Assembly (NCBI GenBank): GCA_947449135.1
Contig: CANFQO010000007.1
Coordinates: 1 to 64,000 of the forward strand
DNA length: 64,000 bases
Direction of reading: 5' to 3'
Source of the DNA: Planctomycetaceae bacterium
GTDB taxonomy: Bacteria; Planctomycetota; Planctomycetia; Pirellulales; UBA1268
Part shown: positions 36,933-52,927 of the stretch, in pieces
Layout of the letters: each line of letters opens with the position of its first letter
Numbering within the stretch: position 1 is the first letter of the stretch
Notes under the pieces: model-generated
What the model was told of the DNA's origin: nothing
The model's input: only the letters and a program-made list of their open reading frames with translations
Databases searched by the model: none
Position numbers and translations under genes: made by a program

Positions 36933-37682
36933 CTAGCGGGATGACGCCCGGCCGTGCTGCCGCATCAGCCGGACCTGCGGGTTGGCCTGCATGCTGCGGG
37001 ACTCGTCGGCATATTCCTGTGGGGTCATGCGGATCCGCCGCTCAAACCGCAGCCGCGCGACCAACCACGAACAGGCCGCCACGACAGCGGCGGCGGCCAC
37101 GAGGGGCAGGATCGCACTCTGCGCGGCGAAGAACATTCTCACCGGGTCGTGCGCCACCTCGCCCGAGCCGAGGAGCATGACCAGCGGTCGTGCCGAGAGA
37201 CCGGCGACCGTCACGAGCAAGGCCAGTCCGCACGCATGGCCCGCGATCGAGGTGAGCGTCGACAACGAACAGATGCGGGCCAGTCCCGCCAGCAGGCTGA
37301 TGCGGCCGAGCGCGGGCGCAACCCGTCCCGGCTGCCAGGTGGGCCCATCGAGCAGCATTCTCACCATCACTCCAACGACGGCCGCGGCACCCACCACCGC
37401 CAGCGTCGGCAGCACAAGTTGTGCCGGGAGCAGGATATCGAGCCGGGGAGCTGCCACGGCGCCACGCAAGTCGGTGTGGTTCCCGGCCGAAGAGAGTGCC
37501 TGCTCCATCATCGTCGTGGCGGCCGCGAAGGTGGCATCGGCCCATGCCGGCAGGAGCAGGAGCGTGGTCGCCACGGTGGCAACCCACGCCGGCATGCTGG
37601 CCAACGGCATGAAGCCCTGCCGACGCGCCAATTCACGGCGTCGAGGTGTGGCAGGGATGGTGCGATCGGCAGCGTCGCTCAT
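36933..37682 (-). CDS. flhB: FlhB-like export component, truncated before the autocleavage domain
   Basis: 249 residues from the ATG at 37682 (ribosome site GGGAG 8 bp before); a TTG at 37700 is an alternative. Four membrane segments match FlhB/YscU (for example WVATVATTLLLLPAWA, VLPTLAVVGAAAVVGVMVRMLL, CGLALLVTVAGLSARPL, AILPLVAAAAVVAACSWLVA). The protein begins with the family's ATPRRRELARRQG and continues into the cytoplasmic linker (ARLRFERRIRMTPQEYADESR), but stops at QANPQVRLMRQHGRASSR, just before where FlhB normally has its NPTH autocleavage site. Typical FlhB is about 350-380 residues. No NPTH sequence is found in any frame directly downstream. It is last in the fli-type operon, 4 bp after FliR. 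Confidence 0.85.
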   Translation of the reverse strand: MSDAADRTIPATPRRRELARRQGFMPLASMPAWVATVATTLLLLPAWADATFAAATTMMEQALSSAGNHTDLRGAVAAPRLDILLPAQLVLPTLAVVGAAAVVGVMVRMLLDGPTWQPGRVAPALGRISLLAGLARICSLSTLTSIAGHACGLALLVTVAGLSARPLVMLLGSGEVAHDPVRMFFAAQSAILPLVAAAAVVAACSWLVARLRFERRIRMTPQEYADESRSMQANPQVRLMRQHGRASSR

Positions 37683-37686
37683 CGAT

Positions 37687-38475
37687 TCATCTCCCGCCAA
37701 AGCAGGCGTCGATCGAACGCATCATCATGATGGCACTGCCACCGGCCCAGGCCTCGGCCCCCAGCCAGAGGCTGGTGAGGAGCACGAGCGAGCCGAGTCC
37801 CTGCAGGAGGCCGTGGCCCGGCGAGAAGGGAATCGATCGCAGGCAGATGGCACTGGCAAGGTGAAACGCCATGACCGCCACGAGCGCCGGCATGGCGAGC
37901 ATGGCGGCCAGCGAGATCGCCACCCCGGGTGTGGTGACGGCAAGCGTCACCAGCCACTCCTGCGGGGACGCCCCAAATGCTGTGCCCACCGGAATGTGTC
38001 GCACGCTGTCGATCAGCCCACCCACAACGGCCAACTGACCGCCCGCGGTGAAAAAGGCGGCGAGTCCCACCCACCAGGCCAGCCGTGCGATCCCCGCCGA
38101 CTCGCCAGCGGCGGCTGGATCGAAGTCATCAGACCACGAGAGACCCGATACGCTGCCGAGGATGCCGCCGGCCCACGCCGTCGCCGCCAGCACCGCCGCC
38201 GCCGCGGTCCCCATCAGCAGGCCGACGAGCAGTTCACCCGCCAACACGGGGAGCAGAGGTCCGATCGGCCTCGCTGTGGGGGTGCTCTGCACGGCCAAGG
38301 CCATTGGCACCGCCACGACCGCCAGCGCGAAGGCCAACGTCAACCGGATCCGAAATGAACCGCCCGGCAAGATCGGGAGCGTGCCCGTGGCCACGGCCGC
38401 TGCGATGCGGCCGCAGACCCCCGCCGCGACGACGGCCTCCGGCGACAGTGCTCCCGTGATCAGGAAAGCCTCCAC
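37687..38475 (-). CDS. fliR: FliR, flagellar-type export apparatus protein
   Basis: 262 residues, start GTG at 38475 with AGGAAGAGG upstream. Integral membrane protein with about seven segments (MEAFLITGALSPEAVVAAGVCGRIAAAV; LTLAFALAVVAVPMALAVQS; GPLLPVLAGELLVGLLMGTAAAAVLAA; FTAGGQLAVVGGLIDSVRHI; and two near the C-terminus). The GELLVGLLMG pattern and a Gly-rich third segment are typical of FliR, which with FliP and FliQ forms the export gate of the type III machinery. It lies between FliQ (13 bp) and FlhB, as in classical flagellar operons. Confidence 0.9.
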   Translation of the reverse strand: MEAFLITGALSPEAVVAAGVCGRIAAAVATGTLPILPGGSFRIRLTLAFALAVVAVPMALAVQSTPTARPIGPLLPVLAGELLVGLLMGTAAAAVLAATAWAGGILGSVSGLSWSDDFDPAAAGESAGIARLAWWVGLAAFFTAGGQLAVVGGLIDSVRHIPVGTAFGASPQEWLVTLAVTTPGVAISLAAMLAMPALVAVMAFHLASAICLRSIPFSPGHGLLQGLGSLVLLTSLWLGAEAWAGGSAIMMMRSIDACFGGR

Positions 38476-38488
38476 GACAAGCCTCTTC

Positions 38489-38740
38489 CTACGGCGACGC
38501 AGCCGTCCGAAACATCTCGACGAATTGCTCGACCATCCACGGCATCACGAGAACCAGCATCGCCGCCATCGCCACGAGTCGCGGGGCAAGGCCCACCAGG
38601 GGTTCGTGGATGCCGGTGGCAGCCTGCACGAGGCCCGTGAGAAGTGCCACCACGAAACCGGCAAGCAGCACCGGCGCGATGACGAGCAATCCAGAGAGGA
38701 TCGCCTGCCGCACCAACTCCACGAGGTCGCCGTCGGTCAT
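38489..38740 (-). CDS. fliQ: FliQ, flagellar-type export apparatus protein
   Basis: 83 residues with the classical two-helix FliQ architecture: VELVRQAILSGLLVIAPVLLAGFVVALLTGLVQ, then the short loop containing ATGIHEPLVGLAPRL, and MAAMLVLVMPWMVEQFVEMF. FliQ subunits help form the gate with FliP and FliR. The length matches the family. Starts 11 bp after FliP with AGGCGGCAGG as ribosome site. Confidence 0.95.
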   Translation of the reverse strand: MTDGDLVELVRQAILSGLLVIAPVLLAGFVVALLTGLVQAATGIHEPLVGLAPRLVAMAAMLVLVMPWMVEQFVEMFRTAASP

Positions 38741-38751
38741 CCTGCCGCCTC

Positions 38752-39741
38752 CTAAGAAGCTGTCTGTCGAACGCCATCGAGCAACGACCTGACGACCAGC
38801 GACCAGCCGTCGGCGGCCACGAACACCATCAGCTTGAGCGGCAAGGACACGAGCGTGGGCGGCAACATCACGAGGCCCGTCGAGACCACCAGCGTCGCCA
38901 CGAGGACGTCGAGCACGAGAAAGGGCAGTAGCAGGCGGAAACCGATCGCGAAGGCCGTCTTCAGTTCGCTGACGAGGAATGCCGGCAGCAGCGTCTCCAC
39001 CGGCACGTCGTCGTACGTGGCCACGCGTTTGGGTGCGGACGGATGCCGCGAGAGAAAATAGAGCATCGTGTCACGGTTACCCGACTGTTCGATCTGCGTG
39101 GCCATCCACCGGCGAACCGGCAGCGTGCCTTGTTCATAGGCCGTGGCCAGTTCGATCCGTCCCTGCTGGTAAGGCTCGACTCCATCGCGGTAGGCGGCGG
39201 TCCAGACCGGCCACATCACGAGCGCCGACAGAAAAAGGGCGAGCGATGTGAGGATCTGATTGGAGGGAAGTTGCGGTGTGCCAAGTCCCTGACGCACGAG
39301 GGTCAGCACGATCGACATTCGCACAAAACACGTGGTCATCAGGAGCACCGCCGGAGCGAGGCTGGCAATGCCAAACATGATCGCGGCGGAGAGCGTGGCA
39401 TCGAGCGAACGGCCGCCGACCAACCTGGAGAGCAGGCCGGAGACTGCCGAGACCTCTCCATTCTCGGCTCGTGAGCCGCGTTGCTGCGCCGAGACCGGCG
39501 ATGGCTCAGTCACGGGGGCTTGTGGGAGCGAGGGCAGAAGGGACGGTTCGGCGGACGCTGGCGGAGTCGCAGCTGCAGGCGGGAGGGTGGCTGGCTCGAA
39601 GGCGACGCTCGCTGGCTGCACCCGCTGGGCCGGCTCTTCTCCAGCGTTCGCCTGGCCTGCAAGCGTGGCCAACACCGCTCCCGTGAGGACCAGCAGGCGA
39701 AGAAGACACGCCAGCCTTCCGACAGGCATGCAGAAGATCAT
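38752..39741 (-). CDS. fliP: FliP, flagellar-type export apparatus protein with long leader
   Basis: 329 residues. Signal peptide (GRLACLLRLLVLTGAVLATLAGQANA), then a Pro/Ala/Glu-rich extension of about 80 residues that normal FliP (245 residues) lacks. The FliP core follows: TLSAAIMFGIASLAPAVLLM, CFVRMSIVLTLVRQGLGTPQLPSNQILTSLALFLSALVMWPVW, and FAIGFRLLLPFLVLDVLVATL. These contain the expected PxNQIL element. FliP forms the five-membered ring of the type III export gate. Starts with a 4-bp overlap (TGATG) on the fused FliF-FliO gene. Confidence 0.92.
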   Translation of the reverse strand: MIFCMPVGRLACLLRLLVLTGAVLATLAGQANAGEEPAQRVQPASVAFEPATLPPAAATPPASAEPSLLPSLPQAPVTEPSPVSAQQRGSRAENGEVSAVSGLLSRLVGGRSLDATLSAAIMFGIASLAPAVLLMTTCFVRMSIVLTLVRQGLGTPQLPSNQILTSLALFLSALVMWPVWTAAYRDGVEPYQQGRIELATAYEQGTLPVRRWMATQIEQSGNRDTMLYFLSRHPSAPKRVATYDDVPVETLLPAFLVSELKTAFAIGFRLLLPFLVLDVLVATLVVSTGLVMLPPTLVSLPLKLMVFVAADGWSLVVRSLLDGVRQTAS

Positions 39742-42050
39742 GCCGCCTCCCTCTCCGCGTGTGCTGGAGCCGATGGCCGATTCGGCGGCGCAAGGCTTCG
39801 CGTGGGCAGCGGCGGACGCAGCGGCGGATGCACGCCACGGCAGGCGGCGGCAATGCAGGCGGTGGCCTGCGGATCGGAGAGTTCGGCGAGCGTCTGGCAG
39901 CCCGCCGCCGACACGCCGACAAGCAACGTTTTGGGGCCGAAGCGCACGATCCGCACGGCATGCTGTCCGCCCAGCGAACCTTCACCCAGCACTTCGAACA
40001 CATCGGGGGGCAAAAGCGTCGACCGCCGCTTCGTGTATGTCGTCGCCAGCGCAGCCACCGCGAGAGTGGCAGCGATTGCAGCCAGCAGCTTCCAGTCGGT
40101 GAGCTGACCGGGTCTGCCAGCAGCCACGCTTGGATCGGTCGACAGATCAATCGGCGTGGAGGAACCGCGGGCTGTCAGTGGCAGAGCGGGCAGAACCTGC
40201 GGAACACTTCCCCCCGCGGCCCGCACAGCGCGTTCTGCCAGTGGCGACGAAGCGGTCTCCAGAGAGGCTGACTGAGCAGGTGCCGCGGCAGGCGGCGCAG
40301 CGGACAGGAGCGTGTCTGGAAGCGGAGCCATGGCGGCCGTCGACTCAGGTTCGGCAGCCCCGACCGGGGCCGCGCAGGCGCAGAGAGCAAAGAGCACCGC
40401 CGCAGCTCGGCCGAGCCCGAGGCCATTGCCGGACTGCCTGGAGCCGCCGGGGGTCTGTGTCTGATCGGTGTCGTGCTCGTCGCCGCCGCCAGCCCAGTCA
40501 ATCCGTGGCTGGTGCCTGCCGGCTGCAGCCCGCCGGCCAGCAGGGTAAGGATCGCGGCGGCTCCCTGCCCACCAGAGAAATCCCGCGAGCAGTCCGACAC
40601 AGATGCTCGTCGCCGCCAGCCAGACCTGCCGCGGCACCTCGCTGAAGCGTCCGGCAGAAATCAGGGTGACAAGGGTGGTGAGGCTTTCATTTCCAGAAGC
40701 CTGATCCGCCGGCTGACCGACTGACGACAGAGCCGTGGAAGTGGAGGAGGTCTGCTTCACCACCGTCCCGCGAACGGCCTGTTCGCGACGGGCTTGCGAC
40801 GGTGAGTATGCGGGAAAGGTGGTGACGACAACTCGCCGCAGGGCCGGGTTGTTGGTTGCCGGCAGCAGGCTCTGCACATGACGACGGATGCGTTCTGTCT
40901 CCTGGGCCTCGACGGCGACCGGCTGCAGCACCGGTTGGCCCGCCCGCTCCGCCGCAGCCCGACACGCGGCCTGGAAGTAGCTCTCGGGCACTGCGATCGA
41001 AACGAGAATCGACTCTGGCGTATCAGCCGTGGCCGCAGGGGCAGGCGGCGGGGCGGCGGGCGGAGCCGCAGCAACAATGATGGCCGAACGCGTCCGGATC
41101 TCAGCGGGGGCGTTGGCAGCGGCGAGCTTTTGTCCGGGAGCCGACGGGCCGGTCTCCTGGGCTGTGGCTGGATCGGCCTGCGGCTCGTCCGGGCCGGGTG
41201 GCAGTGGCAGTGTTGCCGGCGAGGCAAACTCCACCGTCACGTCCACCGTCGCTCCCTTGAGAAAGGCCAGTGACTGACGCACTTTTGTCGCCAGGTGGTG
41301 CTCGTGCGCAATCTTTCGCGCCAGCGCCGGATCGGCGGCGGCCAGTGCCGTGGCATCACGGTCTGTTTCAGCCTCGAGCGGACCGACGTACACGCGGCCG
41401 CTCCGCAGGTCGGTGACCGCCACGCGCTCCGGCGACAGCCCGGCGATCGACGCACTGACGAGCACGCGGATGGCTTGCACACGGGCTGGGTCGAGCTCCA
41501 TGTCGGGCTGGGTGCTGACGTTCACGCTGGCGGTCTTGGCAGGACCGCTGCCCTCGAGACTGTGATGGCTTTCGGTGTCGTAGAGCACCGCGGCTCGCTC
41601 GATGCCAGGCATCGAGCAGATGACGAGCGAAAGCTCCTCCTGCGTGGCCACCCGCAGGAGTTCCCCCTGCGCGGCCCTGCTCTGCCACGGGCTATTCTTC
41701 TCGAGTGCACGACGGAGGCTGCCGCCAAACTCCCGCGGCAGGGCCTCGGCATCGACAAGCGCCCGCATGTAGGCGCTCTGCCGGCTGCGCGGCACCCAGA
41801 CACGGCCACCGTCGGTACGGTGGTCGGTGAGTTGCGCCCGGTCGAAGGCCGCTTCCATGATGGCCATTTCAGACGACGGGAGCGTCATGCCGGCAAGCAG
41901 TTCGACCTCCTCGCTCGTCGGCCGATCGCGGAGCAGCCAGACCGCCCAACCGATCGACACGGCAACGAGGCCCAGGGCGATCACCTGTGCCGGCGTGACG
42001 ACCAGCGGCAGGCGGTCGCGAGGCGATGTCGACGGATGCTGTGCGTCCAT
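39738..42050 (-). CDS. FliF-FliO fusion protein
   Basis: 770 residues from the ATG at 42050. N-terminal part: one membrane segment (PAQVIALGLVAVSIGWAVWLLRD), then a FliF/YscJ-like ring-building region (residues ~45-230) recognisable by LALSDLRSGR-like motifs and the segment VQAIRVLVSASIAGLSPERVAVTDLRSGRVY; a proline/alanine-rich region follows; then a second membrane segment (VWLAATSICVGLLAGFLWW, ~477-495). The C-terminal part is FliO-like: a hydrophobic stretch (RAAAVLFALCACAAPVGA), then DWKLLAAIAATLAVAALATTY and the FliO core (PPDVFEVLGEGSLGGQHAVRIVRFGPKTLLVGV). The reading frame is continuous with no stop between them. FliF normally ends with a FliG-binding tail, which is absent here. Followed by FliP with a TGATG overlap. 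Confidence 0.8.
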   Translation of the reverse strand: MDAQHPSTSPRDRLPLVVTPAQVIALGLVAVSIGWAVWLLRDRPTSEEVELLAGMTLPSSEMAIMEAAFDRAQLTDHRTDGGRVWVPRSRQSAYMRALVDAEALPREFGGSLRRALEKNSPWQSRAAQGELLRVATQEELSLVICSMPGIERAAVLYDTESHHSLEGSGPAKTASVNVSTQPDMELDPARVQAIRVLVSASIAGLSPERVAVTDLRSGRVYVGPLEAETDRDATALAAADPALARKIAHEHHLATKVRQSLAFLKGATVDVTVEFASPATLPLPPGPDEPQADPATAQETGPSAPGQKLAAANAPAEIRTRSAIIVAAAPPAAPPPAPAATADTPESILVSIAVPESYFQAACRAAAERAGQPVLQPVAVEAQETERIRRHVQSLLPATNNPALRRVVVTTFPAYSPSQARREQAVRGTVVKQTSSTSTALSSVGQPADQASGNESLTTLVTLISAGRFSEVPRQVWLAATSICVGLLAGFLWWAGSRRDPYPAGRRAAAGRHQPRIDWAGGGDEHDTDQTQTPGGSRQSGNGLGLGRAAAVLFALCACAAPVGAAEPESTAAMAPLPDTLLSAAPPAAAPAQSASLETASSPLAERAVRAAGGSVPQVLPALPLTARGSSTPIDLSTDPSVAAGRPGQLTDWKLLAAIAATLAVAALATTYTKRRSTLLPPDVFEVLGEGSLGGQHAVRIVRFGPKTLLVGVSAAGCQTLAELSDPQATACIAAACRGVHPPLRPPLPTRSLAPPNRPSAPAHAEREAA

Positions 42051-42162
42051 GCACTGCCCTTCGTGACGGTTGGTTGAACGGATGGTGAGAAACGTGGTGA
42101 ATGAGCGGGAGGACAACGCGACGGTCGTGTCGGCGCAGAGATCGGTGAGGGCAACGGCTCCG

Positions 42163-42735
42163 TCAGGCAGCCAGTCGCTGGGACTGCAGGCGAGGCAAAC
42201 TCAGCGTGATCGCCACGCCCCCTTCTGGGCAATTTGCGGCGTGGAGCGTGCCGTTGATCCGAGCTACGGCCGCCCTAATGGCAGCCAGAGCCAGACCGGC
42301 GCCTTCCGGCGCGAACCCCACTTCGGCCGAGGACTGCATGGCCTGATTCAGCCATCTCCGCACGCCCTCGGAAAGTGACGGCCCGGAATCAGCGACTTCG
42401 ATCTCGATCGCAGACCCCACGTCGACGCTGGTAACGATCACCTCGCGAACCACCGGCGACTCACAACCGGCAACGGACTCTGTAGCCGACTCAAACGCCC
42501 GGCGGATGAGCGGTTCGAGTGCCCGGCGGAGGAGCGCTGGATCGGCGAGAAGCGACTGCTCGTGGTGCCGCGCAACATCGAGCGTAGCTGTCAGCGGCGG
42601 TCGGCCCTGTTCGCGGCGAACACGGGCACAATCCGCGAGAATGGCCGCGAGCAGACTCTGCTGGGGCAGTGCGATCTGGGACGGCAGACCGCGGCCTGAA
42701 GCATCAGTACGACGGTGGCGGTATGAAGGCGTCAT
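42163..42735 (-). CDS. Degenerate GHKL ATPase (histidine-kinase-like) domain protein
   Basis: 190 residues from the ATG at 42735. The fold of an HATPase_c domain can be followed: LLADPALLRRALEPLIRRAFESA for the N-box helix, EIEVADSGPSLSEG for the D-box, and GAGLALAAIRAAVARINGTL for the glycine-rich G-box. No phospho-acceptor His domain and no sensor part are present. The N-box Asn, normally essential, is not found; Arg occupies the equivalent place. It lies between an alpha/beta-hydrolase gene (13 bp) and the fliF-fliO gene in the same direction, suggesting a regulatory role in the export operon. Could be an anti-sigma-factor-like or scaffold protein. Low certainty for ATP binding. Confidence 0.6.
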   Translation of the reverse strand: MTPSYRHRRTDASGRGLPSQIALPQQSLLAAILADCARVRREQGRPPLTATLDVARHHEQSLLADPALLRRALEPLIRRAFESATESVAGCESPVVREVIVTSVDVGSAIEIEVADSGPSLSEGVRRWLNQAMQSSAEVGFAPEGAGLALAAIRAAVARINGTLHAANCPEGGVAITLSLPRLQSQRLAA

Positions 42736-42748
42736 GAAGGGCCGATCG

Positions 42749-43489
42749 TTACGACGCGGAGAGTGAGTGGACGGCGGCGGGCGTTCCGCAGACCTCATCC
42801 ATGATCCAGCGGTTGACATCGGCGAGTACCGATTTGGACAGGTCGTTGCTGCCGGGGTAAATCCGCATGGCGAGCGCCGCCCCGGCGGCATGAAAGAGAC
42901 GGAGCGTACGATCCGTGTGGGATGCCTGCTCCAGCACGCTCGACCGCTGACAGCAGAAGAGCATGGGAAGGCGACGCACGGCGGCGAGCTGCGAAAACAG
43001 CGACTCATTCAATGGAAACTGCCCGCCGAGCGAGATGACGCCGGCGAATTCCCGCGGATGACGGCAGGCGATGCGAAACGCTTCGGAGCCGCCCCGCCCC
43101 TGGCCCACCAGAAAAATGCGTTGCGAATGGATCGCGATGCGGTCACGAACCCGTTCGATCGACCGCCAGACAGCATCATCAAGCCCCATGGCCGGCGACT
43201 CAGACGCAGCGATCACCGGCTCCACAGCAACGAAGTTACGGAGGCTGACCCGCTTCATCACCCGCCCAAGATCGAAGGCTTTTTTGCGAGCGGAGGCCGG
43301 GGTGGGATCGGAAAGCCACACAAGCAACGGATAGTCGTAGCCTGGTTCGTGTCCCAGCGGCGTGAACAGCTGGTCGTCGCCAAGCCATGCGGAGGCCGTG
43401 GAGAACAGGCGGGAACCCGCCGCAACGCCAGTCGCTTTACGGCACTCGGAGCCACTCCGGACGGATCGTTTCGGAAGGCGACTGCTCAT
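42749..43489 (-). CDS. Alpha/beta hydrolase-fold protein of the fli operon, nucleophile lost
   Basis: 246 residues from the ATG at 43489. Alpha/beta-hydrolase core: YDYPLLVWLSDPTPAS as first strand, RIFLVGQGRGGSEAFRIACRHP at the nucleophile elbow, GVISLGGQFPL after it, and RRLPMLFCCQRSSV and the closing HAAGAALAMRIYPGSNDLS. In ordinary members of this fold the elbow is GxSxG; here the residue is Gly (GQGRGG), so hydrolytic activity is doubtful. It is first in the operon that continues with the HATPase-like gene and the fliFO-fliP-fliQ-fliR-flhB series. In-frame open sequence runs upstream to 43795 but has no protein-like character. Confidence 0.65.
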   Translation of the reverse strand: MSSRLPKRSVRSGSECRKATGVAAGSRLFSTASAWLGDDQLFTPLGHEPGYDYPLLVWLSDPTPASARKKAFDLGRVMKRVSLRNFVAVEPVIAASESPAMGLDDAVWRSIERVRDRIAIHSQRIFLVGQGRGGSEAFRIACRHPREFAGVISLGGQFPLNESLFSQLAAVRRLPMLFCCQRSSVLEQASHTDRTLRLFHAAGAALAMRIYPGSNDLSKSVLADVNRWIMDEVCGTPAAVHSLSAS

Positions 43490-43800: not shown

Positions 43801-44760
<960 letters not shown>

Positions 44761-44875
44761 TCAGGATTCCTGGGGCACAAGGAAGCAGAACACTGGAAAA
44801 AGGGCTGTCATTTGTCCCCACGTTGTCGCGACCGGCTCCCGCCGCGGCAAGGCCTGCCCAAAAACTGCGGAGGAG

Positions 44876-46321
44876 TCAGGGCAGCTCGATCCTCTCCGGC
44901 AGCGCGCTGCGGGTCTGCGTGGCGCGGCGGCGGGAGTCGCGGGCAGACGACCAGGCCGCCAGCGCGATCGCCAGACCGATCACCGCGGCGATCGACAGGA
45001 ACACCCAGCCCATGGCGTTGACTTCTCTGGTCGGGCTTGGCGCCGGCTGCCAGGCTGCCTCTTTTCCAATCAGTAAGGCAGTCTCCTGACGGTATCCCCT
45101 CTGCTCCTTGTCTCCCTGCGAGGCGGAGATGTTCACTTCCGGCAACGGATAGCCGTAGCGTTTGAACGCAAAACCGGACACCCGCACGCGTTCGCCGATC
45201 TGTTGGCCCGTCGGCATCCCCTCAGGCAGCGTGACGACACAGCAAACGACCGGATAATTCTCCTGCAGTCGTCCGTGCACCTTGAGCAGCGCGGTCGGCA
45301 CGAAGACGAACAGCTCCCAATAATGGTCGACACCGAGTTGTCGCCGCCGCAATGGATCGTCGATTTCGATGCGGGTCGCCCGACGGGCCACGCCGTCCAC
45401 CGTGAAAGGCTCACCCCTGTGGGTCGCAAACCAGCCGCTCTCGGGATTGATGAGCGGCACAATGTCGCCCGGTGGACCAGCGGCTGACACAATGCCCGCA
45501 GATGTCGCCCGGCCCATGGCGGCCAGCATCGCGTAGAACGCCTCCGTGTCGCCGGCCCCAAGCTTCTGTCCGTCACTCACCGAATCAAAGAGACCATAGT
45601 CCATGCCGAGGCTGCCCAGCGGCGTCGGCGGAAACCAGCCCACGCTCGCGGCTGCCACGAGCAGCGCTGGGGCCGCGGACGACTCACCATCACCGGCGGA
45701 TGGCACCACGGGGCCCGGCGACTCCGAGAGCGGCAGTCCGACGACCGCAGCAGGCTCGTCGATTCTGACGGCCCGCTGCCAGGCCTTTGGCACATGGCTG
45801 GCAAGAACATCAACGAACGTCCCGTTGTCCGTCACGATCCGGACAAGTTCCAGTGGCCGGCGGCCAGCCACCTCGGCCTGCTCCGCAGTGAGCGGCAGCG
45901 CCGCGACGAACGTGGCCCGCCCAACGACACGCACGAGCAGATCCTGAACCCGCTGCGTGGCGGGGAGGGAGCGGATATCGATCGCGTCGGCATTCCACTG
46001 GGAGGCAAGGTTTGCCGGCACCCTCGTCAGCCGGGCGAGCACCCGCAGGGCCGTCTCCTGCTTCGCCGGACTCCACTCGGAGGGCTCCTCGAGCACAGCG
46101 CGAGAGCCCCGGTCAATGTTCCAAGTCGCAAGATAGTCGACGAACGACGCGGCCACCGGCGTGCCCCCTGACTTGGCCGGGGTCTCTGTCTCCACGGCGG
46201 CCGATGGCCCTGCCACCGCGAGGAGGCAGGCCACGGCCCACAGGCAGCGTTGGGCGCCGCGCGGCCTTGCGAGGAGCACGCCGTCGCACCGATCTTCCCT
46301 GGAGCCGGAGACGTGCTTCAT
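44876..46321 (-). CDS. Secreted membrane-anchored hypothetical protein
   Basis: 481 residues; family not recognised. Signal peptide (LWAVACLLAVAGPSAAVETE) and a C-terminal membrane segment (GWVFLSIAAVIGLAIALAAW) enclose a large extracytoplasmic part. The middle contains a motif TLPEGMPTGQQIGERVRVSGFAFKR that recurs in the adjacent gene product (LPDGMPQGMAINEPVDVVGYFFKR), so the two are distant paralogs. The start overlaps that gene by 4 bp (ATGA), so they form one transcript with the small membrane protein, DUF420 and SCO1 genes. A role in oxidase assembly or redox is inferred from that neighbourhood only. Confidence 0.7.
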   Translation of the reverse strand: MKHVSGSREDRCDGVLLARPRGAQRCLWAVACLLAVAGPSAAVETETPAKSGGTPVAASFVDYLATWNIDRGSRAVLEEPSEWSPAKQETALRVLARLTRVPANLASQWNADAIDIRSLPATQRVQDLLVRVVGRATFVAALPLTAEQAEVAGRRPLELVRIVTDNGTFVDVLASHVPKAWQRAVRIDEPAAVVGLPLSESPGPVVPSAGDGESSAAPALLVAAASVGWFPPTPLGSLGMDYGLFDSVSDGQKLGAGDTEAFYAMLAAMGRATSAGIVSAAGPPGDIVPLINPESGWFATHRGEPFTVDGVARRATRIEIDDPLRRRQLGVDHYWELFVFVPTALLKVHGRLQENYPVVCCVVTLPEGMPTGQQIGERVRVSGFAFKRYGYPLPEVNISASQGDKEQRGYRQETALLIGKEAAWQPAPSPTREVNAMGWVFLSIAAVIGLAIALAAWSSARDSRRRATQTRSALPERIELP

Positions 46322-47367
46322 GGCAGGGATTCCTCTGTGAAACGTGGAGATGAAACGCGTGCCGCGTCCTCCAGCCGTTGCAGGGCCTCTTGAGTGGAAA
46401 CGACGTCGGTGGCGGCCAATGAGGCGGTGAGATCGTTAGGAGCCGGCGGCGTCCGGCGGCCTGAGCCATGGCCGGCCGCACGGATGCCAAGCGCGGTGAG
46501 CAGAACAACCGCGGCCATGGTGAGCAGGGCGGCGGTGCCGATTGAGTCTCTTGCCCGGGAGCCTGTTGGACGGCGCTTCCAGATCGGCTCGCGTGCGAGC
46601 ACCAGAGGGGCGAGCCGCACGGTATCGGTGGCGGCATATGCCCAGCGCTTGAAAAAGTAGCCAACCACATCGACTGGCTCGTTGATCGCCATGCCCTGCG
46701 GCATGCCATCCGGCAGCTGGAGGAAGTAGACGACGATCGGCGACACCGGCCCACCCTCCGGTTCCAGCCAGCCCTGCCAATACTCCTCGACGCCATGCTC
46801 GTTGGCCGGAGCCGTTAACTTTTCGAGCCGATGCAGCGTGCCGCGGAACCGCACCAGCCGCCCGCGATAGCTTCGCGGCTGGCCAAACAGTTCGGTGAAA
46901 CTCACCCGTCGGGCAGCCGCATGCGTGAGGGAGTGCATGTCGGCCGACCGGAGCGTCAGCCAGATTTGAAACCACGCGTCTGTCTCGGCCCCTCGAAACA
47001 CAGTGTCGTCGCGAACGCGGGCCAACGACTCCACGGAAGCACCATACGCATCGTCTCCGGCCGCAGGCAGATCGGTGTCTGCCTCGATGACAACGGCGTC
47101 TGTCACGGTGGGGTCGGCGGGGATCTCAGGCATCTTCGTGTCGATCTGGGGCCGGTCAGCCGCCGACGGACGACCAAACCAACTCCGCTCCACCCACCCC
47201 AGCAGGAGCATGATGATCAGAGCCGGGGGCATGAACAGCCAGAAGACCCGCCGCTGTTCGGTCCGTGCCAGATAGTTGCGGGCGGCATGGCGATTCAGTG
47301 GTTTCCCCTGATCCGGCACGGCTGCTGGAACAGGCCACCGCTCTGCGGCAGGACGGGGCTCGCTCAC
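46318..47367 (-). CDS. Membrane protein related to its downstream neighbour
   Basis: 349 residues, GTG start at 47367. Membrane segments near residues 40-60 (FWLFMPPALIIMLLLGW) and 285-305 (TAALLTMAAVVLLTALGIRA) bound a soluble part. The C-terminal half of that part carries PIVVYFLQLPDGMPQGMAIN followed by VVGYFFKRWAY, the paralogous motif with the downstream protein. A VRFRGTLHRLEKL segment suggests an OB-like strand set. Function unknown. Sits between two genes with 4-bp overlaps (GTGA and ATGA). Confidence 0.7.
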   Translation of the reverse strand: MSEPRPAAERWPVPAAVPDQGKPLNRHAARNYLARTEQRRVFWLFMPPALIIMLLLGWVERSWFGRPSAADRPQIDTKMPEIPADPTVTDAVVIEADTDLPAAGDDAYGASVESLARVRDDTVFRGAETDAWFQIWLTLRSADMHSLTHAAARRVSFTELFGQPRSYRGRLVRFRGTLHRLEKLTAPANEHGVEEYWQGWLEPEGGPVSPIVVYFLQLPDGMPQGMAINEPVDVVGYFFKRWAYAATDTVRLAPLVLAREPIWKRRPTGSRARDSIGTAALLTMAAVVLLTALGIRAAGHGSGRRTPPAPNDLTASLAATDVVSTQEALQRLEDAARVSSPRFTEESLP

Positions 47368-47738
47368 GCGTGTGGCGGGGTGATGGACTCAGGGGAGAGT
47401 CGTCCCTCGAACGGCACGATGGCCTGATCCGTGGACGACAGGCCGGCCCGTTTCTGCCGCTGCATCTCCCGCCAGACATAAATACCGAACGAACTGATCA
47501 GCGTGCAGGGCATCGCCAGCATGATGAGGATGCTGTAGAAGTAGCCCCTCGCCACATTCATTCCTTCAGGGTCGGACGTATTCACCGCGTCCTTGCAGTT
47601 CGGGCAGCCGAATGCATCGCTGGCGACGAGCGTAAAGACCAAGAGCACGGGGATGAACACCGGGGTCACCGCGACCAGTCGGGCCACCGCGCGGGTCCAA
47701 CCGCGATGCTCAACGGTAGGGGCTGAGATGCGGGCCAT
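47364..47738 (-). CDS. Small membrane protein with CxxC motif
   Basis: 124 residues with two membrane segments (VTPVFIPVLLVFTLVASDAFG; FYSILIMLAMPCTLISSFGIYVW). Between them, the loop contains DAFGCPNCKDAV, a CxxC that could bind metal or act as a thiol. Located between DUF420/SCO1 and two membrane proteins, all in the same direction, so participation in oxidase copper handling is plausible but not shown. The gene overlaps its downstream neighbour by 4 bp. Confidence 0.7.
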   Translation of the reverse strand: MARISAPTVEHRGWTRAVARLVAVTPVFIPVLLVFTLVASDAFGCPNCKDAVNTSDPEGMNVARGYFYSILIMLAMPCTLISSFGIYVWREMQRQKRAGLSSTDQAIVPFEGRLSPESITPPHA

Positions 47739-47778
47739 GGCACAAACTCCCGGGCAATCCCGTGTAGCAGGGTGGGGC

Positions 47779-48276
47779 TCAACCAGGAACGACTGCTCCA
47801 GGAACGGCAGCTCCCGCCTTCTCCATGATAGGCTCCCGCGAACCGCCTGGGTAGAAGCGATAGAGCATGAGATAGATCACCACCCCCGTGATCGAGACGT
47901 AGAGCCAGATCGGCATCGTGATTCTTCCCAGCCGCCGGTGGGCCTCCCAGCGGCCTTTGACGGCCAGCACGAACATAGCGATCGCCAAAACCGGCACGGT
48001 CACCGCCAGCAGGATGTGGGTGATGAGGATCGTGAAGTAGACCGTGCGGACCGCCCCCTGCCCCGTGAACGGCACGTGGCCGACCAGCCAGTGGTAGGTC
48101 AGGTAGCAGATCAAAAAGAGCGTCGAGACCGCGAAGGCTGAGATCATGGCGGCTCGGTGGGCCCGCCACTGACCACGGCGGATGAATATCCAGCCGGCGG
48201 CCAGCAGAACCGTCGCCAATGAATTGAGGGCGGCGTTGATCGTGGGCAGCCAATGGGCCGCAGCGTCGAGATTCAT
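47779..48276 (-). CDS. DUF420 membrane protein (CtaM/YozB-like)
   Basis: 165 residues with four membrane segments (LPTINAALNSLATVLLAAGWIFI, AAMISAFAVSTLFLICYLTYHWLVG, TVYFTILITHILLAVTVPVLAIAMF, IWLYVSITGVVIYLMLYRFYP) and the DUF420 pattern (RRGQWRAHRAAM, RTVYFTILITHILLA, HRRLGRITMPIWLYVS). In Gram-positive bacteria the homologue CtaM is required for haem aa3 oxidase maturation. It is directly coupled to SCO1 (ATGA overlap), supporting the same role here. Confidence 0.9.
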   Translation of the reverse strand: MNLDAAAHWLPTINAALNSLATVLLAAGWIFIRRGQWRAHRAAMISAFAVSTLFLICYLTYHWLVGHVPFTGQGAVRTVYFTILITHILLAVTVPVLAIAMFVLAVKGRWEAHRRLGRITMPIWLYVSITGVVIYLMLYRFYPGGSREPIMEKAGAAVPGAVVPG

Positions 48277-48977
48277 TCTGAGGGGGCTCCCACGGGGGCT
48301 GACTCCGGCGATGATCCGGCAGGTTCGGCCAGCACATCGAGGATCAGTTTCTCGAGCAGCTTCACCCGGTCAGGCTGGAGCAGGTGGTAGCTGCCCCGCA
48401 GCCTCCCCTCGCGATCGAAGACCACGCCCCGCTCCGAATGCACACCCACCTCGGCTGGCAGCAGGAACGTGCCGTTGGCGATCTGCTTGATCGTCGCCAT
48501 GTCGCCGGTGAGGAATTTCCAACGGACCGGATCAGCCTCGAAGCGGTCGGCGTATCTCCGCAGCGATTCGGGGGTGTCGTTGTCGGGGTCGCAGGTGACG
48601 CTCACAACCATGAAGTCGGGGTCGGGAATCTTCCGGAGGATGTCGGCGAGCGCCTGGTTCTCACGGAAACAAGGGCCAGGGCAGTTGGCGAAGAACACGC
48701 TCGCCAGCCAGACCTTGCCACGCAACGATGCCGAATCGAAGTCCTTGCCGCTGCGTTCCGTGAGCGTGAACGGCGCGGCGACAGCGCCGGGCGGCATCCG
48801 CTCAGGGGCCGGTAGCGGCGACTCGTCGCGGGCCACCGGCGCCATCGTGGCAGATGGCACGACGGGTCCGCCCTTGTCCACCTTTCCGCAGCCAAGAGCG
48901 GCCAGCAGGAGGGGCACGACCAACACCCAGCCACACGTGACGTTACTGGGCAGGCTAAACAATGGTGTTGAACTCAT
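48273..48977 (-). CDS. SCO1/SenC-like copper chaperone lipoprotein
   Basis: 234 residues from the ATG at 48977. A lipobox-like site (PLLLAALGC) at residue 30 indicates a lipoprotein. The thioredoxin-fold core has the copper-binding motif CPGPC (C99, C103) in LASVFFANCPGPC, and a downstream His in VGVHSERGVVFDREG (H180), together forming the SCO1 copper site. SCO1 delivers copper to the CuA centre of cytochrome c oxidase subunit II, encoded about 6 kb upstream in this locus. 4-bp overlap with DUF420. Confidence 0.92.
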   Translation of the reverse strand: MSSTPLFSLPSNVTCGWVLVVPLLLAALGCGKVDKGGPVVPSATMAPVARDESPLPAPERMPPGAVAAPFTLTERSGKDFDSASLRGKVWLASVFFANCPGPCFRENQALADILRKIPDPDFMVVSVTCDPDNDTPESLRRYADRFEADPVRWKFLTGDMATIKQIANGTFLLPAEVGVHSERGVVFDREGRLRGSYHLLQPDRVKLLEKLILDVLAEPAGSSPESAPVGAPSE

Positions 48978-49275
48978 CTGGTTCACAGGCGGCATCCTTC
49001 GTGACTGTTAGAGGAGCCGGGGGTCGGGGGAAGCCGAATACACGCGAACCCTGGCCATCCAGGCCAGATTCGCTTGGCCGGCCGCCGCCGGCTGGTAGTA
49101 CCCATGGCATCCTGCCATGCAGAGTCAGTGTAGCATTCGATGAGCCGGGGACGGTGGAAGCCGAAGCGAGTCGGGCTATCCTGCCCTCGAGTCGGAGCCC
49201 ATCCGCCGCCGGGGCGGCGGACGCAGTCGTGTCACCGCCCCCGGCGGTTTGGGCCGTCCGACTGTCGGATGCTCG
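48978..49275. other. Repeat-rich intergenic region at the end of the oxidase operon
   Basis: 298 bp between subunit IV and SCO1. A hairpin TCCGCCGCC/GGCGGCGGA (49202-49221, loop GG) and CATGGCA/TGCCATG (49103-49119) are present. Two imperfect copies of GAGCCGGGG-x-CGG-x-GGAAGCCGAA lie at about 49014-49041 and 49142-49168. The GGAAGCCG core resembles the dispersed repeats at 13.8 and 25.6 kb. No coding frame is credible. Confidence 0.5.
49202..49221 (-). terminator. GC hairpin after the oxidase operon
   Basis: Palindrome TCCGCCGCC GG GGCGGCGGA, 55 bp after the subunit IV stop codon on the minus strand. No T-run, so a candidate transcript end only. Confidence 0.45.
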
Positions 49276-49782
49276 CTAGTGTGCCGGTTCGGCGAGAACC
49301 TTCGCTTCACCGGCCTGTTCCAAGAGTCGCACGTCGGAGCCTCGGGCCATGTACAGGGCCCGCTCCTGCGACACCATGCGGTTTCGCATGCCGATGTCGG
49401 GCACCAGCATCAGGGCAAGAAAGATCGCCATCATGGCGGCTGGGATCGTGAGCACATACTTCCAGTTGGCCTCCCAGAAGACGTGCATGAAGAACAGCAC
49501 GACGAGCATTGCCTTGGTGCACGACACTGCCATCATGAAGGCCCAGCCAACATGCGGCTCGTTTCGCCACGGCCAATAGGGGGAATAGGTGAGAAACGAC
49601 ATCGTCGTCAGGCCGCAAAGCGCGACAAACACCAGCAGATACTTGCCGATGCCACCATGCCCGGCATGGTTGTCATGACCGGAGCCGTGGCCGGCATCGT
49701 CATGGTCATCATGCGCTGGGATGTCTCCGACCCTGGTGATGGGGCCGTGTGCATGGGCGGAATGGGTGTCGTGATCGCTCAT
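49276..49782 (-). CDS. Cytochrome c oxidase subunit IV family protein
   Basis: 168 residues from the ATG at 49782. The N-terminal 45 residues are extremely His/Asp/Gly-rich (DHDTHSAHAHG, HDDHDDAGHGSGHDNHAGHG), a possible metal-binding tail. Three membrane segments follow: YLLVFVALCGLTTMSFLTYS, WAFMMAVSCTKAMLVVLFFMHVF and VLTIPAAMMAIFLALMLVPD, with the CTKAMLVVLFFMH pattern of the prokaryotic subunit IV (COX4) family. Last gene of the oxidase series. Confidence 0.88.
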   Translation of the reverse strand: MSDHDTHSAHAHGPITRVGDIPAHDDHDDAGHGSGHDNHAGHGGIGKYLLVFVALCGLTTMSFLTYSPYWPWRNEPHVGWAFMMAVSCTKAMLVVLFFMHVFWEANWKYVLTIPAAMMAIFLALMLVPDIGMRNRMVSQERALYMARGSDVRLLEQAGEAKVLAEPAH

Positions 49783-49795
49783 AGAAAACCTCAAA

Positions 49796-49844
49796 ACAGC
49801 AAAAACGTAGGACAGCAAAACCTTAGAACAGAACTTTAGAACAG
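49796..49844. repeat. Short direct repeats between oxidase subunit III and IV genes
   Basis: ACAGCAAAA occurs at 49796-49804 and 49812-49820, and TTAGAACAG at 49823-49831 and 49836-49844. The second TTAGAACAG contains the stop codon (TTA on the plus strand) of the subunit III gene, so the repeat duplicates the sequence around a stop codon, as at 55767. Confidence 0.7.
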
Positions 49845-50825
49845 ATAGAGCAGCGGAAACAGGAAGATCCAGACCAGGTCGACGAAGTGCCAGTAGAGAC
49901 CGGCATTTTCAATCTTGCCGGCCTGCTTGGGGCCAAGTTTGTAGAACAGCAAGATCGTGAAGACGATCAGGCCCACCAGCACGTGGACGGCGTGGAAGCC
50001 GGTGAGCAAGAAATACGTGCTCGCCCACATGTTGCCGCCGGGGATGACGGCGGGAAGCCTGAGCCACGGGAAGATGTCATTGAGACCGCTCGCGTGGCCA
50101 CCGTGGCCGCCGTCGTGCGAGCCGCCGGGTCCTTCAGTCGGCAGCGGCATCACCTGGTCCGCTACAACGGCCAGATCGAACGCCTGCTGCTCGGGGCTGG
50201 CCACCATCTTGCGGATCTGCTGGAGCCGTCCTCGGGCTGCCACCTGTTCGGCCGAAAGCTGGTCGGCCGGCGTGTCGTCGAGCTCCTTGAGCTTGTCGAT
50301 GATGGCAGGCTCTCCGAGCCGGGCCCGAACGGCGGAGCCGTAGTAGAGGTCGGGCTTCTCGTAGATGAGGCCGCGCGGGGCCTGCGGGTAGATGCCGTGG
50401 GAGAACTTGGCCTGGTATTCGTAGCCTTTGACTCCAAGAAAGAGCATGCCGAGCAGGAGCGTGAGGAGCATCCAGAACTTCGCGATGCCGGCCTTGTTGG
50501 CGCGGGCGAACTCCAGCGCCAGCACGATCGTCACGCTGGAGCAGATCAGCACGAACGTGTTGAAAGCGCCGATCGGCTCGCTGAGATGGACATGGTGCGG
50601 CTTGGGCCACACGGGTGCACCGAAGCGAAGCACGACGTAGCTGCCCAACAGCGCCGCGAAAAACATGATCTCGGTGGAAAGAAAGAGCCACATGATCAGT
50701 TTGCCACGCGTGAGGGGCAGTCCGGGCTGGTACTGCAGCACCGGGCCGTGGTGGCCGTGGCCGTCATCGTGACCGCCGGAGTGCCCATCGTGGCCGTGCG
50801 GAATGGAGATCGCGGAAGCGTTCAT
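49836..50825 (-). CDS. coxC: Cytochrome c oxidase subunit III
   Basis: 329 residues, longer than the usual 200 or so of bacterial caa3-type subunit III. It starts with a His-rich tail ([18 protein letters not shown]). The first segments show [45 protein letters not shown] and [22 protein letters not shown], typical of subunit III. Then an insertion of about 110 residues (from [14 protein letters not shown] to [11 protein letters not shown]) containing acidic helices and HDGGHGGH. The last two segments follow ([45 protein letters not shown]), including the family's GFHAxHV and WHFVDxVW. Same operon as subunits I, II, IV. Confidence 0.93.
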
Positions 50826-50873
50826 GGTCGGAGCGTTCTCGAAAGACTTCTGGAAATGGAAATGGTTGCTGTA

Positions 50874-51896
50874 TCAGGTTGGCAGGCCAAAGACGACCGA
50901 GGCCGTCAGCAGTGCCAGCAGGGATCCGAGGGACGTAAAGAGCAACGTGCGGGCTGAGGCGTCGTCGCGCCGAACAGCGAATGCTACCGTGGCCACAGCA
51001 TAAACGAGCGAGGCGATCGCTGCTGCCAGAAACAGCCGAATGCTGCCGGATGGTACGGCCAGCACGAGGCTCACTGGGACCATCGCCAGACTCGCGGAGA
51101 GGGCCTGTCCGGCCGCCCGCAGGCCGCTGGGATCGTCGACGGTCAGCATCCGCATGCCTGCCGCCGCATACTGGCCACGATAGAGCCAGGCGATCGCCAT
51201 GAAGTGCGGAAATTGCCAGAGATACAGCACGGTGGCCAGTGCCGCCACGGCCAGCGCGCCGGCAGCATCTCCGCCAGCCAGTCGCTGCGGGCCTTCAGCT
51301 GCCAGCCAGCCAATGGCCACCGGCATCGCCCCTGAGATGGCACCGACGGCGGTATTGAGCGGCGACCACATCTTCATCGGCGTATAGATGACGACATAGA
51401 GAAGCCACGTCGCGAGCGCCGCTGCAGCCGGCTGCCAGCCTGACGCCAGCGTCATGATCAGACCTCCGGCGGCCACCAGAAGCGTCGCCAGCATGACTGC
51501 GGCGGGAACGCTCAAGCGGCCTGCTGCGATGGGTCGGCGGGCCGTGCGGGGCATGAGCCGGTCGGCGTCACGTTCCAGGATCTGGTTGGCGACGCTCGAA
51601 CTGGCGGCGACCAGGGTCGTTCCGACCAAGAGCCAAAAGAGTTCCGGGCCGGCGAAGCCGCGACCGGCGGTCAGCCACCCGGAGGTCACGACCGTGGCCA
51701 GCACCATCAACGCAATCCGTGGTCGTGTGAGTCGCGAGATGTCGGCCGACAGGGCGGCTGCCTTGCCTGCGAAATCACTTTCTGCGTCGCGAGACTGCGG
51801 CGGCGCGGAAGGATGCATGGGCGCGACCGCCGAGGCGGACGACGGCGCGAATGCCGACGCTGTGAAGTCGGCCGAGCAATCTGGCGGCGGCGTCAT
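50874..51896 (-). CDS. ctaB: Haem O synthase (protohaem IX farnesyltransferase)
   Basis: Converts haem B to haem O using farnesyl diphosphate. 340 residues with a polar leader of ~50 residues. The UbiA motifs are present: NQILERDADRLMPRTARRPIA (substrate-binding Asp-rich motif) and the second YTPMKMWSPLNTAVGAISGAMP. Seven to nine membrane segments. Gene overlaps ctaA by 4 bp (ATGA) and lies immediately before subunit III, giving the full haem A pathway for the oxidase. Confidence 0.93.
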   Translation of the reverse strand: MTPPPDCSADFTASAFAPSSASAVAPMHPSAPPQSRDAESDFAGKAAALSADISRLTRPRIALMVLATVVTSGWLTAGRGFAGPELFWLLVGTTLVAASSSVANQILERDADRLMPRTARRPIAAGRLSVPAAVMLATLLVAAGGLIMTLASGWQPAAAALATWLLYVVIYTPMKMWSPLNTAVGAISGAMPVAIGWLAAEGPQRLAGGDAAGALAVAALATVLYLWQFPHFMAIAWLYRGQYAAAGMRMLTVDDPSGLRAAGQALSASLAMVPVSLVLAVPSGSIRLFLAAAIASLVYAVATVAFAVRRDDASARTLLFTSLGSLLALLTASVVFGLPT

Positions 51897-52927
51897 GCGA
51901 ATGCCCTTTCCCGGAGATGGTCCGCTCGCGGGGGCGTGGCTGGACCCACTCTCGGAGAGGCGAGCACGCCTGACACGATCGCCAGCACCACCCCTGCACC
52001 GAGAATCATCATGCCGAGCACGACATGGCCGGTGACCACCGCCGCGCCCCAGAGGCTGCGGGCTACGAGGGGATCAGAAAACATCCACGACGCGGGGAGC
52101 CAACCCGACGGCAGCCCCCAGTTGACGATCCAAGCACCGAAGCCAAGAGCCAACTGGAGACCCACGAGGAGCAGGATCGCCAACGACCATCGGCGGGCAG
52201 CGGGCCGCTCTCCCATTCGAGCAGAGATCGCAGCGGCGATGGCGAGCGTTAGCACGACCACGGCTCCGACCAGATGAAACGCCACGAGCCAGCGGAATGT
52301 GGTCGGATCGACAGAAGCGTCGAGATGCCGCAACTGGGCACCGGCCACGAGTTGAACATAACTCGCGAGGGCCAGGCCAGCGGCCGTTCTTCCTGCCGAC
52401 AACGAAGTGAGCGACGACGCCTCCGAGGGGCCGGAAGTGGCCTGACTCCTGACGGAGCTTCCGGAGGGCTTTCGGGTGAGCGTGGCGATCGCAACAGCCA
52501 CGGCGAAAAACAGTGGGCCGGTGCAGGCATGCACCTTGGCCACCGTCTTATCGTCGAGCAGCACGCGGGCGCCGCCGAGCACTCCCTGCACCACCACCAG
52601 CAGCACCGCCGCAGCGGCCAGTGCCCGGACCGCAGGGCTCAGGCGACTCCTCCAGACGATCGCCGCCAGCGTCAGCGAAATCATGCCGACGAGGGCTCCC
52701 AGCAGACGGTGACCGTGCTCCAGGAACAAATCCCACGGGCCGTAGAACCACTCCGACCACGGGAACAGAAACATGTTGTGGCCGTAGGTGGCAGGCCAGT
52801 CGGGAACCGCCATGGCGGCGTCGAACGTCGTGACCAGCGCTCCGAAGCAGAGCAGCAGAGCCGTCACCGCGACGAGGACGCACGCGATCGCGTGCGACCA
52901 ATTGGAGGGCCTGATGGTTCTGATCAT
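51893..52927 (-). CDS. ctaA: Haem A synthase (CtaA/Cox15)
   Basis: Oxidises the methyl group of haem O to form haem A. 344 residues with eight membrane segments in two four-helix halves. Histidines expected for haem are in LEHGHRLLGALVG, KVHACTGPLFF, VAFHLVGAVVV and VTGHVVLGMMI. Motif GGARVLLDDKTVAKVHA and AVPDWPATYG near the N-terminus are typical of Cox15. Adjacent to subunit I (49 bp gap) and coupled to ctaB. Confidence 0.92.
   Translation of the reverse strand: MIRTIRPSNWSHAIACVLVAVTALLLCFGALVTTFDAAMAVPDWPATYGHNMFLFPWSEWFYGPWDLFLEHGHRLLGALVGMISLTLAAIVWRSRLSPAVRALAAAAVLLVVVQGVLGGARVLLDDKTVAKVHACTGPLFFAVAVAIATLTRKPSGSSVRSQATSGPSEASSLTSLSAGRTAAGLALASYVQLVAGAQLRHLDASVDPTTFRWLVAFHLVGAVVVLTLAIAAAISARMGERPAARRWSLAILLLVGLQLALGFGAWIVNWGLPSGWLPASWMFSDPLVARSLWGAAVVTGHVVLGMMILGAGVVLAIVSGVLASPRVGPATPPRADHLRERAFA

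Follow-up and report, generated by a model that had tools for sequence, protein, structure and literature searches.

The C-terminal domain of FlhB in the flagellar type III export gate docks early substrates, and its removal is needed for late export (PMC13344023). In Salmonella without the rod/hook genes and Flk, an FlhB that lacks residues 270 to 383 or is stopped at residue 258 exports FlgM but neither early substrates nor hook protein (PMC13344023). FliA acts as the export chaperone of FlgM (PMC8527033), and the export ATPase is dispensable given enough proton motive force (PMF) (PMC7911332). Flagellar-type parts are also kept without flagella in the Planctomycetes-Verrucomicrobia-Chlamydiae group, where chlamydial FliI, FlhA, and FliF have no known function (PMC2830194), and a reduced, nonflagellar type III secretion system (T3SS) of Myxococcales, the "Myxo" group, was first called a degrading relic and later argued from its conservation to be functional (PMC3459982). 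Andrei et al. (2019) reported a flagellar apparatus only from freshwater Nemodlikiaceae (Phycisphaerae) and three diverse metagenome-assembled genomes (MAGs) (PMC6461901). Here, we describe an operon of flagellar-type export genes from a Planctomycetaceae bacterium (Pirellulales, GTDB family UBA1268; GenBank assembly GCA_947449135.1), at positions 36933 to 43489 of a 64,000-nucleotide stretch of contig CANFQO010000007.1 (the window), itself part of a 3.69-Mb, 169-contig assembly that is 96% complete. From its sequence and that of its relatives, this operon and a distant FlhA-FliA-FlgM locus very probably form a conserved, selected, nonflagellar protein export gate, the remainder of a native planctomycete flagellum; the rod, hook, filament, switch, ATPase complex, and specificity-switch domain of FlhB would, in all likelihood, have been lost in the ancestor of the family.

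The locus resembles the flagellar gate in its homologous gate proteins, FliO, and the ring protein FliF, with flagellar models scoring higher than those of injectisomes, but differs in having no rod, hook, filament, switch, or ATPase complex, an FlhB without the autocleavage domain, a FliO fused to FliF, and two apparent pseudo-enzymes in the operon. With the Salmonella mutants it shares the missing parts, an FlhB end close to the selected stop at 258, and the presence of FlgM and FliA; whereas those are overexpressing laboratory strains (PMC13344023), the state here is natural, fixed across a family, and also without FliI. Chlamydia retains the ATPase and a full injectisome; in the system described here the ATPase has gone and the complete FliOPQR-FlhB-FlhA gate remains. 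The Myxococcales system comes from a different phylum and from a lineage that branches basally among injectisomes, and injectisomes in general differ in that the gate proteins described here are flagellar type rather than Sct type and no SctN ATPase scores over its cutoff. Our search of 5.4 million open-access papers found incidental mentions only and no prior description, most subscription literature and bioRxiv preprints lying outside that search.

Results

The observation of a stripped-down flagellar-type export operon, made in the initial annotation, is confirmed: all seven open reading frames (ORFs) lie at the place and on the minus strand originally proposed, and the named families are matched (Table 1). 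FliP shares 4 nt with FliF-FliO and FlhB shares 14 nt with FliR, and the remaining gate genes are 11 to 13 nt apart, a tight spacing from which we conclude that they form an operon. Flagellar models outscore injectisome models for FlhB (65 versus 45 bits), FliP (216 versus 149), FliR (67 versus 47), and FlhA (597 versus 460), and flagellar-type models also score above Sct-type ones for FliQ and FliF. The genome as a whole holds the full export gate set of FliP, FliQ, FliR, the FlhB membrane domain, and FlhA.

Table 1. Genes of the export operon, with positions in the window and the profile matches that identify them
Feature	Position	Strand	Evidence and remarks
FlhB, transmembrane domain only	36933..37700	-	PF01312 E=1.1e-24, model positions 2-232/335
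FliR, export gate	37687..38475	-	PF01311 E=2.2e-24
FliQ, export gate	38489..38740	-	PF01313 E=1e-17
FliP, export gate, N-terminal extension	38752..39741	-	PF00813 E=3.4e-63
FliF-FliO fusion	39738..42116	-	PF01514 (YscJ_FliF) 2e-16, PF04347 (FliO) 3e-5; FliO part ~39861-40082
HATPase_c-only protein	42163..42735	-	PF02518 E=4.5e-8; ORF extends to 43008, likely start near 42735
Alpha/beta-hydrolase-fold protein (apparent pseudo-hydrolase)	42749..43489	-	PF02230 (Abhydrolase_2) 6e-5

FlhB is 255 amino acids (aa) long from a TTG codon, or ∼249 aa from the likely ATG start. As had been noted from the sequence, it lacks the autocleavage domain: the chain extends 5 residues beyond the profile match, ends ∼20 residues short of the autocleavage site, and contains no NPTH-like or NPxx site. 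The family FlhB profile aligns to residues 3 to 248 of the solved FlhB structure 8z5s. A profile search found a single FlhB in the genome, covering model positions 2 to 236 of 335. An assembly or frameshift artifact was rejected, the same end being found in ∼60 genomes, and no separate FlhB C-terminal protein (FlhX-like) was found in this genome. Small separate proteins of this kind do occur beside full-length FlhB in four genomes of family f17 (G080, G074, G085, and G308), and in G214 only an FlhX-like C-terminal domain was seen. Native full-length planctomycete FlhB carries the cleavage motif NPTE rather than NPTH, both in the full-length Pirellulales systems (L187, L190, L192, L194, L195, and L197) and in L188 and L189.

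The AlphaFold model of FliF comprises a transmembrane segment, two domains resembling ring-building motifs (RBMs), a third with a disordered insert at the collar position, a second transmembrane segment, and a tail of ∼11 residues, so that the predicted absence of a FliG-binding tail holds; the arrangement of the domains is uncertain (mean predicted local distance difference test score, 73.5; predicted template modeling score, 0.36). The best PDB matches of the model are FliF membrane/supramembrane (MS) rings, with RBM2-length domains at TM-scores of up to 0.9 of the target. The model thus suggests an MS-ring-like protein of the order transmembrane-RBM1-RBM2-RBM3-transmembrane with a short tail and without the FliG-binding end, for which ring assembly is predicted. 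FliF and FliO form one ORF in this genus; elsewhere in the family FliO has its own gene or is joined to FliP.

The initial annotation had noted that no FlhA, FliI, hook, rod, filament, or switch gene adjoins the operon, and this holds. FlhA is nevertheless not missing from the genome: it is encoded at positions 32459 to 34432 of contig C20 (E=1.6e-186), is full length (model positions 2 to 655 of 657), and retains the motifs FPTxLL, MAID, MDGA, and LTIGDGL. Directly downstream of flhA lie genes for the sigma factor FliA (sigma-28; 263 bits, above cutoff) and an FlgM-like anti-sigma factor that is conserved across the family, its N terminus included. An element of the form TNAAGTTT-N12/13-GYCGATGA is conserved upstream of flgM in most family members and is close to the known sigma-28 consensus. 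A first promoter scan with the exact enterobacterial consensus was not significant against shuffled controls; we accept the promoter-like element because of its alignment across members. In the 0.88 Mb of the genome scanned (24%), the flgM site, which was in the training set, ranks first by 7 bits. FlhA also has FliA adjoining or one gene (FlhF) apart in the rod-less genomes G093, G186, G222, G319, and G169. Between the sigma-28-type promoter and the start of flgM, at L002:8968-9354 (minus strand) and in family members, lies a strongly conserved leader block reading GACTGGTGTCGCCGG...GCGCGGCAAnAAT ... GAACC ... CGTA. It has no match in Rfam over the gathering threshold, by which a known RNA was rejected, and covariation is weak; the block may be a new cis-regulatory RNA.

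Neither a complete flagellar gene set nor a full-length FlhB was found elsewhere in the genome, which has zero matches to rod/hook (PF00460), flagellin (PF00669), and FliG (PF01706) profiles. Rod/hook domains are likewise absent from all 35 family genomes tested, and 1 to 7 of them occur in each of the 12 genomes of the same class with full FlhB. The FliI/YscN ATPase model (TIGR01026) scores over its cutoff in none of the 72 family genomes, and we read its hits below the cutoff as F1 alpha/beta (adjacent pairs) and Rho (weaker hits). Secretin, needle, and translocon genes do not adjoin the operon, a statement limited to this neighborhood since no genome-wide search for them was made.

What is left of the apparatus is conserved. 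FlhA is present in 65 of the 72 family genomes (34/34 of high quality) and FlhB in 60 (31/34), nearly always ending at about position 220 to 245. The order pseudo-hydrolase, HATPase, FliF, FliO, FliP, FliQ, FliR, FlhB is constant in complete family loci, which argues that the arrangement is not due to chance, and FlhA-FliA-FlgM forms a second locus of constant order. The gate is kept across 12 genera with frames and order intact, and the named loci come from uncultured, largely freshwater Planctomycetaceae/Pirellulales bins. Ratios of nonsynonymous to synonymous substitution rates (dN/dS; pairwise Nei-Gojobori estimates between this genome and congeners) are 0.07 to 0.08 for FliP, 0.07 to 0.10 for FliQ, 0.11 to 0.13 for FliR, 0.17 to 0.18 for FlhA, 0.17 to 0.22 for FliF-FliO, 0.23 to 0.27 for FlhB, and 0.01 to 0.04 for FliA. 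The gate proteins, originally described as well conserved, are thus under purifying selection, with ∼100 invariant FliP positions among 14 family members and no pseudogene signals in FliP, FliQ, or FliR of relatives. One 4.5-kb contig from a 73%-complete bin (G062:C272, L111) carries full-length FlhA, FlhB, and FliR; it holds the family's one full-length FlhB/FlhA pair and is probably contamination.

The two genes at the head of the operon, flagged from the start as unusual companions, are both present and appear to have lost catalytic residues. The hydrolase-fold protein matches the fold of the esterase LC-Est1 and of carboxylesterases and aligns with LC-Est1C and polyhydroxybutyrate depolymerases. 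Alignments show that the nucleophile serine of GxSxG is replaced by glycine (GxGxG) in nearly every member, G169 included, and an active esterase was rejected on account of this loss. The N-box asparagine of the HATPase is lost here and in most members, being kept in G032 and G018. Judged by these residues, both proteins look like pseudo-enzymes kept for binding.

Beyond the family, FlhB is found in 210 of the 258 genomes of the class, and by our table ∼64 have a short or divergent FlhB only. None of the 52 tested genomes that have an FlhB devoid of the cleavage site and no intact copy of their own (35 from the family plus 17 from elsewhere) has rod/hook domains, whereas each of the 12 tested genomes with full FlhB has them. 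Every genome with rods carries a full FlhB, nine of them alongside a short one. In a tree built on FlhB, FliR, and FliQ, the NPxx site occurs in 26 of 26 flagellar rows and in none of the 44 others, where it was removed by truncation (35 rows) or by loss of the site from a C-terminal region that is itself kept or altered (9 rows, mostly family f15 and genus g82); its distribution needs at least four changes on the tree. Several other planctomycete lineages appear to have independently kept a gate without a flagellum.

Nine genomes hold a short and a full FlhB together (G088, G135, G209, G224, G231, G256, G286, G303, and G318), eight of them with two FlhA as well and G303 with one. In our trees the short gates group within the native flagellar lineage of planctomycetes, and the full-length FlhB of genomes with two systems belongs to a separate lineage near Phycisphaerae. 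The idea that short FlhB marks an old paralog of the flagellar system, coexisting with it, was dropped given this placement, and the second flagellum was probably acquired. Loci L203, L204, L251, and L252, together with the short gates of their genomes, are examples of such pairs of flagellar-type systems.

Less reduced forms also exist. A MAG from Lake Fargette/Pavin carries twelve genes (L170:152-11254) in the order HATPase-FliF-FliG-FliH-FliI-FliJ-FliN-FliO-FliP-FliQ-FliR-FlhB, with a short FlhB (257 aa); no rods were found in it, and the system is likely an evolutionary intermediate. In G169, from another family, the operon described here has FliF naturally fused to FliG. The two together suggest that the rods and the FlhB dock were lost first and the platform and ATPase later. 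FliF-FliG fusion proteins of reduced systems are encoded at L243:4864-6762, L248:10578-12620, and L239:2078-3793 and resemble the fused chain of PDB 8z4d.

Discussion

The initial annotation had left a remnant and a repurposed export gate side by side; purifying selection and the lack of pseudogene signals favor the repurposed branch over the remnant. Given family-wide retention under strong selection and the apparent independent parallels, the retained gate probably has a second job. From the observed gene content, conservation, selection, and promoter-like element, we infer export, its substrate, its direction, and a regulon in the following, tentative form: a gate without an ATPase, driven by PMF and set permanently for late substrates, whose export of FlgM would release FliA. 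We regard this as the likeliest mechanism, though it is by no means assured. FliP, FliQ, FliR, and the FlhB membrane domain would form the pore inside the FliF ring, and the FlhA ring, with its membrane-domain motifs intact, would power export by PMF without an ATPase. Since FlhB has no C-terminal dock for early substrates, the gate may be locked in late-substrate mode. FlgM, with FliA as its carrier, would then be exported into the periplasm, freeing FliA for its regulon, with flgM itself transcribed from the sigma-28-type promoter. The parts of such a switch are in place (FliA, an FlgM-like protein, and a FliA-type promoter-like element on flgM), and we propose a secretion-coupled sigma switch minus the flagellum because the remaining set fits late, FlhA-docked export, with FlgM-FliA as the sole recognized late substrate and chaperone. 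The pseudo-hydrolase and degenerate HATPase might, at a guess, be scaffold or regulatory subunits. That planctomycetes have repeatedly made such a stand-alone gate, permanently in late mode, without flagellum, ATPase, or specificity switch, and with FlgM export as its main job, is possible but rather doubtful.

Several observations weigh against this proposal or the broader reading of the locus. FlgM scores under its NCBIfam cutoff (34.0 versus 40.75 bits) and was otherwise seen in just a single rod-less lineage (G292, 32 bits), where the flanks are short. In the scanned 24% of the genome, a strong sigma-28 site occurs only at flgM, itself a training-set member, and the 118 weaker hits, versus 46 expected, outline no clear regulon; a FliA regulon from these 0.88 Mb was rejected because flgM alone stands out. 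The FlhB-truncated gate of Salmonella worked only with overexpression and loss of Flk (PMC13344023). The flagellin and FliG searches cover this genome only. Support for the deep branches of the tree is weak, so the count of independent reductions should be taken as a minimum.

Among the alternatives, the one that survives best, though we consider it unlikely, is that the gate secretes other, unrecognized substrates such as surface proteins, attachment material, or effectors through axial or outer membrane parts too diverged to be recognized, with FliA and FlgM controlling expression. Selection on the gate, the wider rod-less version in L170 that keeps FliG, FliH, FliI, FliJ, and FliN with a short FlhB, the natural FliF-FliG fusions that persist in rod-less G169 and G301, and the genomes that keep a reduced gate alongside a true flagellum are all consistent with it, but the flanks examined contain no conserved unknown gene accompanying the gate except the two pseudo-enzymes, and the loss of the FlhB C-terminal domain removes the known docking site for early substrates. 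Less probable still is a complex that no longer exports and instead conducts ions or solutes, acts as a mechanosensor, or, held by the FliF ring, organizes the membrane; the loss of the ATPase and FlhB dock, the pseudo-enzyme companions, and the lack of a known substrate would fit such a role, which is at odds with the full-length C-terminal ring of FlhA and with the retention of FliA and FlgM together with FlhA. That the flagellar genes are a decaying remnant, in the course of being lost and kept by chance, is very improbable: it would account for the extensive loss of components, the faster evolution of FlhB and FliF relative to FliP, and the missing catalytic residues of the companions, but not for intact frames and order in 12 genera, dN/dS far below 1 (lowest in FliA), or the same core in other rod-less lineages.

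As a nonflagellar export gate, the locus appears to be a type III gate of unusually small size, maintained in nature without ATPase, FlhB cytoplasmic domain, or rod. It makes testable, outside engineered strains, what a minimal export gate is and what selects a gate after the flagellum is lost. The close association of rod loss with loss of the FlhB cleavage site lends support from natural variation to the recent claim that this domain enforces the early-substrate mode. "Flagellar" genes in planctomycete genomes are not readable as evidence of swimming.

Additional observations

Upstream of the operon and in the same direction (window positions 43801 to 51998, minus strand) lies a block of malate dehydrogenase, DUF420, SCO1, COX4, COX3, and UbiA genes, together with two related proteins without a Pfam match (at 44876 and 46318). 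This block is largely syntenic across the family.

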